41,165 nt of DNA from positions 1-41,165 of the IMG/VR virus record IMGVR_UViG_3300046524_000104; one strand, 5' to 3'. Positions 19,413-36,970 of the stretch are shown piece by piece (positions within the stretch are counted from its first letter, which is position 1; each line of letters starts with the position of its first letter). A program made the position numbers and the translations under genes. Origin of the DNA: a virus. The notes below the pieces were generated by a model. It saw only the letters and a program-made list of their open reading frames with translations. It was not told the origin of the DNA and searched no databases.

Positions 19413-19765
19413 CAGAGAGCCTGGGTAATAGTGGTCTGGCCGAACTGCGTATTGACCACGGCAGCGACCGTGAATTGGCGCGTCGCAGGGTCGAGAAAGC
19501 TTGCGTAATCGACGATCTCATTCACGCCCTGCGTCTCGAGGATGACCGTTTGCACGGCGAGGTCGCGCGTCGCCTCTGTGCCTGCGCCGAGGATTTGCGT
19601 GTTGTAGGGTGTGCCGGCCGTCTGGTCGAGGAACCACTCGCCGGCTATCAGCTTGAGGCGCGTCTGGATTGCCTGGGCGACTGCGGCGGGGCTGTCGACG
19701 AGGAAGTTTTGGCCTGCCTCACCCCACGTGTAATCCCCCGTTGGGCTCAAGGTTCGATATCTCAT
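19412..19765 (-). CDS. Baseplate protein, gp25/Mu gp46-like
   Basis: A 117-residue protein (MRYRTLSPTGDYTW start). The AVAQAIQTRLKLIAGEWFLD segment followed by TPYNTQILG is the small wedge-protein motif of contractile tails (T4 gp25/Mu gp46 group). The ATG at 19765 is chosen because homology begins there; the longer frame upstream is the end of the inserted GIY-YIG gene read in another phase. The first 47 bases overlap the endonuclease gene, so insertion supplied a new upstream context for its ribosome binding site. Confidence 0.75.
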   Translation of the reverse strand: MRYRTLSPTGDYTWGEAGQNFLVDSPAAVAQAIQTRLKLIAGEWFLDQTAGTPYNTQILGAGTEATRDLAVQTVILETQGVNEIVDYASFLDPATRQFTVAAVVNTQFGQTTITQAL

Positions 19766-20630
19766 TCTTGGAGACTCCATCTGCCGCTGCCGCCTTTCGA
19801 CGCGCCGCTGCATCACGTATTTTTTGAATGGTTTCGGGGCTATGCTTGCGCCCAGTCTGGGCCGCAGACATTTTTGCCCTTGCCTCATCGGACGGTCGCA
19901 TGCCCATGCGGGACTTGGAGAGATTGGCTCGATGCTCAGCGCTTTTCGGCTTTCCCTTCGCCGCAGCACTCATCTTTGCCTTCGTCTCTTCTGAGTGAGG
20001 AGAAAATCGAGCGGCATTGATCTTTTCGATTACGAGGGGATCGAGCCTCGCTATACGTAATGCCTCTCGCGCCATTTCGGCGCGCTCTGGAGAAAGCGGA
20101 ATACCGCGGCGCAGCGCATGAGCGGCGTTGAAAGCAGCGCGGCGCTCCGGACTAGAGGCTAGCGCCGCTAGTTTCTCCCGTGTTTCAGGCTTGCATACGC
20201 GCAGCTTCAACGATTCACTCATCCTCGCCCGAGTTTCCGCGCTACGCCTTTTCCCTTTTCCGCCAGCCGAAATCTTGGCTATCCACTCGTCGCTCATAAC
20301 GCGGCCTCGATGCCGATCTCCGATTTTCTTTTTTACCTCATCCATCAGGGCCGGACTTATATCCCCACCTGTTGTGGAGTTATACCCGCCGGGAGAAAGT
20401 GTCCCATATGCCGCGATTGCCGATATCTCGACATCCAACAGTATCGATTCTTCAAGTACGGCAAGTACTGTAAGAGTAGGCTCTCCATATGCGCGCCACG
20501 CACGATATAGAAGTAAATCGGATTTCTGGGAGGCTTGTCGATGCTGCTTGAAACGCTTGGCTGCGCTGTAACGGCTGATGCCGATATAGGATTTCCCGGA
20601 CGCGAAGTCCAGACGATAAAGTTCGCCCAT
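19719..20630 (-). CDS. GIY-YIG homing endonuclease with NUMOD3 repeats
   Basis: A 303-residue free-standing homing endonuclease. The GIY-YIG nuclease domain spans about 1-90 (LYRLDFASGKSYIGISR, then a DVEISAIAAYG segment with the glutamate). Several NUMOD3 DNA-binding repeats follow (SAETRARMSESL, HSEETKAKMSAA, PSDEARAKMSAA, HSPETIQKIRDA). It is inserted between the spike gene and the gp25-like gene and overlaps the latter by 47 bases. Its 5' leader carries the structured element described at 20633-20716. It probably cleaves phages lacking the insertion. Confidence 0.9.
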   Translation of the reverse strand: MGELYRLDFASGKSYIGISRYSAAKRFKQHRQASQKSDLLLYRAWRAYGEPTLTVLAVLEESILLDVEISAIAAYGTLSPGGYNSTTGGDISPALMDEVKKKIGDRHRGRVMSDEWIAKISAGGKGKRRSAETRARMSESLKLRVCKPETREKLAALASSPERRAAFNAAHALRRGIPLSPERAEMAREALRIARLDPLVIEKINAARFSPHSEETKAKMSAAAKGKPKSAEHRANLSKSRMGMRPSDEARAKMSAAQTGRKHSPETIQKIRDAAARRKAAAADGVSKNEISNLEPNGGLHVG

Positions 20631-20632
20631 GT

Positions 20633-20716
20633 GTCATTTCCTGTTATGACGCTCCTGATTGTGGACTGCGGCAACAGGTCAGGAAACCTGCTTTCGCCCC
20701 GTCGGGCTAGCCGCAG
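20633..20716 (-). ncRNA. Structured leader A: three-way junction plus SD hairpin
   Basis: Read on the minus strand, 20716-20666 forms P1 (CTGCGGC/GCCGCAG), P2 (GCCC-GACG-GGGC) and P3 (CAGGT-TTCCTG-ACCTG) joined by UA, GAAAG and UU. After 15 bases a second hairpin (GTCAT-AACAGGAA-ATGAC, 20650-20633) exposes or hides the AGGA Shine-Dalgarno; the ATG at 20630 follows two bases later. A homologous leader lies at 36878-36961. Family unknown to me. Confidence 0.7.
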
Positions 20717-20741
20717 CAACTAAAGTTTACACCGAAAATCC

Positions 20742-35687: not shown

Positions 35688-36434
35688 TCAATCCGTCAAT
35701 ATCGGCTCAGCGAAACATCTGCAATTCCAGATGCAGCCAGGATTTGCGCGTTCGCCCGTGCGCTCATCGGCGACAGGCGGGTTATTCCACTGGAAAATCT
35801 TGCCGTTGAGCTTCTTGTGGTCGCTGCGGACGGTTGAATCGCCGCTGGTCCGCCAGATGTAGGAATCTGCGCCGATGTGCTCTGCTCGAGCTTGCGTGAG
35901 CGTGGCGGCCGTTCTTGCGGTCTCGGTACGGGCGATCAGAACAGCGCGTGAGGTTGTGACTTCCTCGGTGCGCTGAATCTCTTTCGCTATCTCCTGAAAC
36001 CGCGTCGAGTCCTCCAGCCCAGCCAGCGTCAGCCGATGCACCCGCTGCGCCGCCTCGATTGGTATGCTCTGAATCAGTCCGACCTGTTCGGCGAGCAACT
36101 GCCGCATCACCTGACCGGTCGGCGCATTGCGGATCTCTTCGCGCAGCCCGCGTGACAGTTCTTTGGCCATCGTCTGCCACGCCTGCTCATCACGCAGCGC
36201 GACGTCCATCAGCATGTTGCTGGCTGTCTGCGTCGCCCATCCCTTGAGCATGTCGGAGTAGGCTTTGAGCAACTGCTCGATCGTCGGAACCTGGCTCATG
36301 TCGCCGGGCGTGAATGGCGAGATGATCGAGCCGACCTGCTGCGCTACCTTGCGGAGTTGCAGGGCGTACCGCTGCTCGATGCGCTGCGTCTTGACCGGGT
36401 TGCGGCTTCGCTTGCGGTCAAGGGTTAGCATCAA
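35688..36434 (-). CDS. Head morphogenesis protein (SPP1 gp7/Mu F-like)
   Basis: A 248-residue minor head protein. Its C-terminal 100 residues have the Mu F core: ARTETARTAATLTQARAEHI, then DSTVRSDHKKLNGKIFQW and a CIWNCRCFAEPI end with paired Cys. The N-terminal part is helical. In SPP1-like phages this protein enters the capsid with the portal and helps DNA ejection. It lies one gene after the portal, separated by the inserted unknown gene. Confidence 0.85.
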   Translation of the reverse strand: MMLTLDRKRSRNPVKTQRIEQRYALQLRKVAQQVGSIISPFTPGDMSQVPTIEQLLKAYSDMLKGWATQTASNMLMDVALRDEQAWQTMAKELSRGLREEIRNAPTGQVMRQLLAEQVGLIQSIPIEAAQRVHRLTLAGLEDSTRFQEIAKEIQRTEEVTTSRAVLIARTETARTAATLTQARAEHIGADSYIWRTSGDSTVRSDHKKLNGKIFQWNNPPVADERTGERANPGCIWNCRCFAEPILTD

Positions 36435-36877
36435 ATTTCCGCTTTTATAAATCCGAGATCAATATCGACAACTAGCAACTGATCTCTATTGGTCGCCGAG
36501 AAACGTCCGGATGCCCAGAAACCACCACTCTGAAAATCGACGTATTCCTTATCGGTTGCCTGAATATCAACGCGACCACAGGAGAATGTCTCTTCACCCG
36601 TGCAGAATCCACCGCTCGGGCCTACGTCAGCGCCCATCATGGTGCCGCTCACCGATATCTCTTTGCGCTGATGGGCTATCTGCAAAATAGAGAACGCAAG
36701 ATCCACCGGATCAAGCCCCTCCATCTGAAGAAGCGCGTACATTTCGGTCGCGGAATCAGTTGGTCGCTTCCCCCAAGTTCCTACATCCGTTCTATCCTGC
36801 AATGCAGCGAAAATCTCTTTCGCGACGCTTATCGCTGCATCAGTAAGGTGCGGTCTATTCTCGATTAGATTCGACAT
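36431..36877 (-). CDS. Unknown protein inserted between portal and head morphogenesis genes
   Basis: A 148-residue protein I do not recognise. The ATG at 36877 is chosen because GGGAG lies just upstream, inside a hairpin. Residues 1-75 are helical (MSNLIENRPHLTDAAISVAK and later LDPVDLAFSILQIAHQ). Residues about 85-148 are beta-rich with two Cys (GGFCTGEETFSCG, then GFWASGRFSATN). It overlaps the head morphogenesis gene by four bases. It interrupts a normally contiguous portal-head gene pair and shares its structured 5' leader with the GIY-YIG gene at 19719, suggesting a mobile or moron gene. Confidence 0.6.
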   Translation of the reverse strand: MSNLIENRPHLTDAAISVAKEIFAALQDRTDVGTWGKRPTDSATEMYALLQMEGLDPVDLAFSILQIAHQRKEISVSGTMMGADVGPSGGFCTGEETFSCGRVDIQATDKEYVDFQSGGFWASGRFSATNRDQLLVVDIDLGFIKAEI

Positions 36878-36961
36878 TTCATCTCCCAAAGATGAACCCT
36901 GAATGAGAGGCTGCGGCAACGGGCAGGGGAACCCGCTTTCGGACGGCCATCCTAGCCGCAG
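36878..36961 (-). ncRNA. Structured leader B: three-way junction plus SD hairpin
   Basis: Read on the minus strand, 36961-36911 forms P1 (CTGCGGC/GCCGCAG), P2 (GGAT-GGCC-GTCC with one U-G pair) and P3 (CGGGT-TCCCCT-GCCCG), joined by the same UA, GAAAG and UU as in leader A. Then TTCATCT-TTGGG-AGATGAA (36896-36878) is a seven-base-pair hairpin that includes the Shine-Dalgarno GGGAG and ends at the ATG. It starts nine bases after the portal stop. Confidence 0.7.
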
Positions 36962-36970
36962 CACAACTTG

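Follow-up and report, generated by a model that had tools for sequence, protein, structure and literature searches.

On read-through transcripts, a structure that sequesters the Shine-Dalgarno sequence (SD) silences bacteriophage T4 I-TevI and other homing endonucleases of phages, and SD-sequestering hairpins have been described for T4 I-TevI, segB, and Aeh1 mobE (PMC3014915, PMC2988022). The T4 systems rely on a simple hairpin containing a late promoter, whose use undoes the hairpin (PMC3014915, PMC2988022). A different point of reference is the int-alpA RNA family (RF02996), which Rfam types as 'Gene; sRNA' and whose printed structure line includes neither a pseudoknot nor an SD hairpin. The discovery description of int-alpA reportedly dates from 2017; the literature naming the family that we found consists of a table entry only, and int-alpA has been one of numerous orphan structured RNAs that lacked an assigned function. 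Translational riboswitches of the SAM-II and preQ1-II classes form a pseudoknot that joins an aptamer loop to sequence at the SD or close to it.

The window, that is, the whole stretch of viral DNA analyzed here (41,165 nt of IMG/VR record IMGVR_UViG_3300046524_000104), carries two int-alpA RNAs on its minus strand. A cmscan search against Rfam 15 returned exactly two matches in the whole window, both to RF02996 and both spanning model positions 1-71 of 71: leader A (20653..20717, 49.9 bits, E 1.6e-7) and leader B (36897..36962, 53.6 bits, E 1.8e-8), the gathering cut-off being 35.8 bits and the E-values being computed over the whole window. Both share with the family the three helices and the CUAG and CGAAA junction core. 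Since these scores lie far above the cut-off and the pattern CTAG..CGAAA..TGNCGC occurs twice in the window compared with 0.05 expected occurrences, the leaders are not chance resemblances. The first-pass annotation had called them unrecognized, with a junction new to its author, and had proposed an Rfam search; the full-length matches remove that novelty, and a novel RNA class is ruled out. The leaders are members of a known orphan family, and what is new is their functional reading as cis leaders. Rfam riboswitch models gave no cmscan match to either of them.

The location from which int-alpA takes its name, between integrase and alpA genes, is not found in this phage, where leader A sits among tail genes and leader B between portal and Mu F-like genes. 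That location gives the family its name without entering into its definition by sequence, and it is missing from most phage members. At one relative (L305), the order is integrase, 22 nt, RNA, a 179-aa cargo gene with no Pfam hit, and AlpA (Pfam 1.9e-21), so there the family name fits.

In leader A, the three-way junction formed by P1, P2, and P3, with CUAG and CGAAA, occupies 20666..20716; in leader B, it occupies 36911..36961. Sequence reading, RNAfold, and the Rfam structure line agree on both, and RNAfold recovers the three-way junction from each 51-mer (-29.5 kcal/mol for A and -25.2 kcal/mol for B). The first-pass annotation had recognized these 51-nt elements on the minus strand (20716-20666 and 36961-36911), their identical 7-bp P1 and junction bases, the exchanges in P2 (C-G to G-C, A-U, and U-G) and P3 (A-U to G-C), and, after each junction, a hairpin enclosing the SD of the gene that follows, and re-reading of the sequence bore out every one of these observations. 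Its broader proposal of a structured minus-strand RNA with covariation is likewise supported by the sequence, RNAfold, and family comparison, and its suggestion of cis control over the next gene stands as a reading that the sequence supports; the aptamer that it also suggested is a conjecture. It missed a pseudoknot (PK1, below), the complementarity between the P3 loop and the SD-hairpin loop, and the spread of the RNA before 58 unrelated gene groups.

Downstream of each junction, again on the minus strand, come a linker and a hairpin that carries the SD. The last six nucleotides of the leader A P3 loop, UCCUGA (20679..20684), are complementary at 6/6 positions to the linker strand UCAGGA (20653..20658), and family-wide covariation supports both strands of this pairing, PK1. 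The SD hairpin of leader A, GUCAU-AACAGGAA-AUGAC (20633..20650), holds the SD AGGA (20639-20642) in its loop, ahead of the ATG at 20630, and this loop is complementary to the leader's own P3 loop as well, a relation that recurs in the family test. In leader B, CCCUG in the P3 loop (36924..36928) is complementary to the linker strand CAGGG (36897..36901), with support from the family test, and the hairpin UUCAUCU-UUGGG-AGAUGAA (36878..36896), identified from the sequence and by RNAfold, directly precedes the ATG at 36877. The final positions of the RF02996 model (conserved AgGG) coincide with the PK1 3' strand. Unlike the family as depicted in Rfam, the RNAs described here are 5' leaders with PK1, a possible second pseudoknot, and an SD hairpin; PK1 is absent from the Rfam structure line, yet it may have been known earlier, because Infernal models cannot hold pseudoknots.

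The analogy with T4 I-TevI proposed in the first-pass annotation is supported by the SD-hairpin precedent, as here, too, the SD of a phage homing endonuclease is held in an RNA structure (20633-20650; the corresponding hairpin of leader B is at 36878-36896). Unlike in T4, a conserved pseudoknotted junction precedes the hairpin, and one device serves unrelated genes. The resemblance to SAM-II and preQ1-II lies in the pseudoknotting of an aptamer-like loop with a strand at or near the SD and in the position, since the RNA lies in cis upstream of the gene that it would control and appears to carry an expression platform; the differences are that int-alpA has no candidate ligand, no shared pathway, a different fold, and no Rfam riboswitch match.

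Relatives were collected by pattern scans of IMG/VR and one genome scan, which yielded approximately 85 viral loci with the fold and further chromosomal ones, and about 50 of them (53 non-redundant members) formed the comparative set. The RF02996 model applied to whole genomes scored above the cut-off in 58/299 sampled Burkholderiaceae, in 39/369 genomes from the class of a Kluyvera genome, in 13/385 genomes from the class of a Mesorhizobium genome, and in 0/14 control genomes. A blastn search for close relatives of leaders A and B in named phages produced matches at chance level only. The enterobacterial version is present in Enterobacter phages ENT1, BHUENT3, and BHUENT6 and, at 76% identity, in 2/5,426 E. 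coli genomes; a divergent copy in an E. coli prophage is flanked by a minor tail protein L gene and by a hypothetical gene preceding a C40 peptidase gene. Single phages can carry two or three leaders before different genes and with different P2 loops (L210, L218, and L222 in G009; L213 and L219 in G010). Members used in the pairing tests were partly found with patterns that fixed CUAG and CGAAA, and these bases therefore seem invariant in part by construction; the tests of PK1, the SD hairpin, and the start codon are independent of them. Natural variants exist at L225, L247, L258, L272, and L273, where the first P2 pair changes from G-C to C-G or U-A and CUA changes to CCA or CUG, and they are useful for telling which junction bases matter.

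Of the 80 chromosomal RF02996 hits, a set selected by the model irrespective of position, 74 are followed within 2-40 nt of their 3' end by an SD, a start codon, and an ORF (60 aa or longer unless truncated by a contig end), compared with 9.3% of random same-strand positions and 4/80 on the opposite strand. The distance from P1 to the start codon is 26-40 nt in nearly all of the 53 non-redundant members and is filled by the pseudoknot strand and the hairpin; members outside this range have a terminator-like hairpin inserted between P1 and the start codon. On the upstream side, 41/67 testable chromosomal loci have a long ORF on the same strand that terminates no more than 60 nt before the RNA (8.4% at random positions), its stop codon lying mostly 3-24 nt before the RNA, and in leader B the upstream stop codon is approximately 8 nt before P1. 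The ORFs ending 6-13 nt before the RNA at L229, L254, L266, and L294 look by eye like HTH/antitoxin-type genes rather than integrases. Judged from these positions, int-alpA appears to be almost always a leader just before a gene, which favors a cis leader over an sRNA.

A universal promoter just upstream of P1 is ruled out, as the general signal in the 45 nt before P1 amounts to at most 0.32 bit per position. An extended -10, TGATATAAT, directly 5' of P1 is confined to enterobacterial copies. At L004, L008, L010, and L012, as at further enterobacterial loci, the box adjoining the 5' side of P1 is TGATATAAT or TGATAAAAT, and the TGA of this box closes the upstream open frame, so that promoter and stop codon overlap.

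A MAFFT column alignment misplaced the tail and the P3 register, and pairs were therefore counted within each member and compared with swapped partners. PK1, in which the last six nucleotides of the P3 loop pair with the linker strand between P1 and the SD hairpin, scored 5.30 of 6 for own partners and 4.19 for swapped ones, a difference matched in 0/20,000 permutations, which remove composition and only partly shared descent (the 5' strand was fixed by position). Against the nearest relative with a different loop, a control that itself accounts for relatedness partly, the own partner was better in 35 cases and worse in 6. Positions 3-5 of PK1 take all four Watson-Crick types (C-G, U-A, G-C, and A-U), as illustrated by UCAUCA/UGAUGA (L087), UCCGAG/CUCGGA (L074), and UCCCGA/UCGGGA (L080). 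An independent duplex-energy test had the same outcome, and the same pairing test applied to the 22 nt upstream of P1 was null (3.70 compared with 3.73).

The alternative pairing of the P3 loop with the loop of its own SD hairpin (PK2) scored 4.78 for own and 4.17 for swapped partners (0/20,000 permutations), and the own partner was better in 28 and worse in 9 nearest-neighbor comparisons. The SD-hairpin loop often repeats the linker strand, with ACUCGGAG present twice in L074, ACAGGGCU twice in L118, and CUGUG twice in enterobacteria. The sequence comparison thus supports PK2, although more weakly than PK1, and the result is partly confounded because SDs resemble each other, even though the swapped-partner controls contain the same SDs. 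The mean duplex energies of PK1 and PK2 are close (-7.9 and -8.8 kcal/mol), which fits what a switch requires. The SD hairpin itself had a mean score of 6.18 compared with 2.77 for dinucleotide shuffles; an SD within a loop of 5-8 nt is not necessarily hidden. Comparison of family members demonstrates, at the level of sequence, the three-way junction, PK1, the SD hairpin, the leader position, and the exchange of cargo.

The cargo of leader A is a 303-aa GIY-YIG/NUMOD3 homing endonuclease (19719..20630, minus strand; phrog_314 homing endonuclease 6.6e-34, NUMOD3 1.3e-16). The 3' end of this ORF (19719-19765) overlaps the apparent ATG of the next gene (19765), which encodes a baseplate wedge-like protein, by approximately 47 nt; the GTG-start ORF listed at 19969 probably does not mark the true start. 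Leader B precedes a 148-aa protein of no recognized family, with no Pfam, PHROG, or PADLOC hit, encoded between the portal and Mu F-like genes (36431..36877, minus strand). Overall, 143 instances of the RNA stand before 58 similarity groups of unrelated proteins. Those recognized comprise HNH_3 homing endonucleases (the largest phage group), NUMOD4-HNH and GIY-YIG proteins, an HNH protein with a phage replication C-terminus, KilA-N, a methyltransferase, and a weak tail-tube match; most of the remaining proteins have no Pfam hit. Defense genes as cargo were ruled out for the sampled proteins (PADLOC 0/10, NCBIfam 0/10). At the portal/Mu F junction, leader B and the leaders of L030 and L063 are near-identical and precede unrelated ORFs, and in L188 a nearly identical leader with a fourth ORF lies after, not before, the Mu F-like gene. 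These four loci (36911-36961 in the window) also share approximately 8-10 identical nucleotides upstream of the leader.

On this evidence, leaders A and B, both int-alpA RNAs, probably act in cis as intercistronic translational control elements for mobile-element cargo. The RNA, which directly follows the stop codon of the preceding gene or stands in front of an accessory gene, folds into the three-way junction and ends in the hairpin that presents the SD of the next gene in its loop. In the mechanism that we propose, the P3 loop can pair alternatively with the linker strand before this hairpin (PK1) or with the SD loop (PK2), the PK1 state presumably leaving the SD usable (on) and PK2 together with the hairpin locking it (off). 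The invariant junction bases might set the balance between PK1 and PK2 in response to some trigger, for which a ligand, a protein, ribosome coupling, and dimerization are candidates. Such control may serve to prevent the expression of homing endonucleases and other cargo from read-through transcripts of the invaded operon until a certain stage or signal. More tentatively, and with somewhat less than even confidence, int-alpA could be a widespread portable translational switch of mobile elements, in which the P3 loop chooses between the linker decoy and the SD of whichever gene is plugged in; we hold equally tentatively the joint claim that such a switch is read out possibly through P2 kissing dimers or a ligand.

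Several other explanations have to be weighed against cis control. The classification of int-alpA in Rfam implies a trans-acting sRNA that is processed or terminated before a gene lying nearby by accident, and the terminator-like GC hairpin and U-run right after the junction in the MTKLYIANC gene family and in L069 and L103 are consistent with it. We consider this quite improbable, because in 74/80 hits an SD and a start codon follow at a fixed spacing, the 26-40 nt leaders have no terminator, and pairing with the SD loop fits cis control; where the terminator-like hairpin is present, there is no room for a promoter between it and the next SD, which points to an attenuator rather than a gene end. 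Such hairpins between junction and start codon occur at L043:2425, L016:414, L028:368, L060, L065, L069, and L103, and in the MTKLYIANC family the U-run can double as the 5' arm of the SD hairpin. Even less probable is a DNA-level cassette site for cargo exchange, comparable to integron attC, with an incidental RNA structure. Near-identical leaders with unrelated cargo at the same operon position (leader B, L030, and L063), the shift by one gene in L188, and 98 pairs with a junction at least 96% similar yet unrelated cargo would suit it; nevertheless, homologous recombination in a conserved leader is enough to account for the swaps, and the fixed start-codon distance and the covariation linking the P3 loop with the linker and the SD loop are meaningful only in an mRNA, which leaves this explanation highly improbable.

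The remaining candidates concern what might operate the cis control element. A metabolite or ion riboswitch, with the invariant CUA/GAA junction as ligand pocket and the PK1/PK2 exchange as expression platform, is unlikely, though several features speak for it: near-invariant junction bases stand amid freely varying helices, a translation platform and a terminator-like platform occur in one class, and PK1 and PK2 are similar in energy. It is opposed by the lack of a common pathway among the 58 downstream groups, unlike in most riboswitches, by several copies per phage, and by the lack of a ligand candidate; as most cargo proteins are without known function, no shared pathway names a ligand. 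Plain translational coupling, in which ribosomes stopping a few nucleotides before P1 perturb the junction and melt the SD hairpin, would agree with the upstream stop codons at 41/67 loci and in leader B, but 26/67 loci have no such ORF, enterobacterial transcripts may start at the RNA itself given the extended -10, and a junction with invariant bases exceeds what coupling requires, which makes it distinctly unlikely. Kissing of P2 loops between transcripts, through which folding or translation would track transcript number and hence phage or plasmid copy number, draws on a palindrome of at least 4 nt in 25 of the 34 unique P2 apical segments (10.9 expected, at most 20 in 2000 shuffles), a count taken over related members alike. 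The palindromes include GGCC, CGCG, GCGC, CCGG, CTGCAG, and GTGCAC, the remaining segments being mostly GACG or UAGC loops. Leaders within one phage have different palindromes, the P3 and SD loops have no palindrome excess, and the excess in P2 suggests that kissing dimers may form in part of the family; however, the common GACG and UAGC loops are not palindromic, and leader A has GACG, so as a general explanation dimerization is very unlikely.

A leader with a specific PK1 and an SD hairpin makes the function of int-alpA testable by reporters with defined mutations. If int-alpA is indeed a portable switch, phages and islands would control homing endonucleases and accessory genes with one standard RNA part. 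The findings suggest that mobile elements share one RNA part for homing endonucleases, replication proteins, and unknown accessory genes, and int-alpA could serve to mark accessory genes in prophages and islands.
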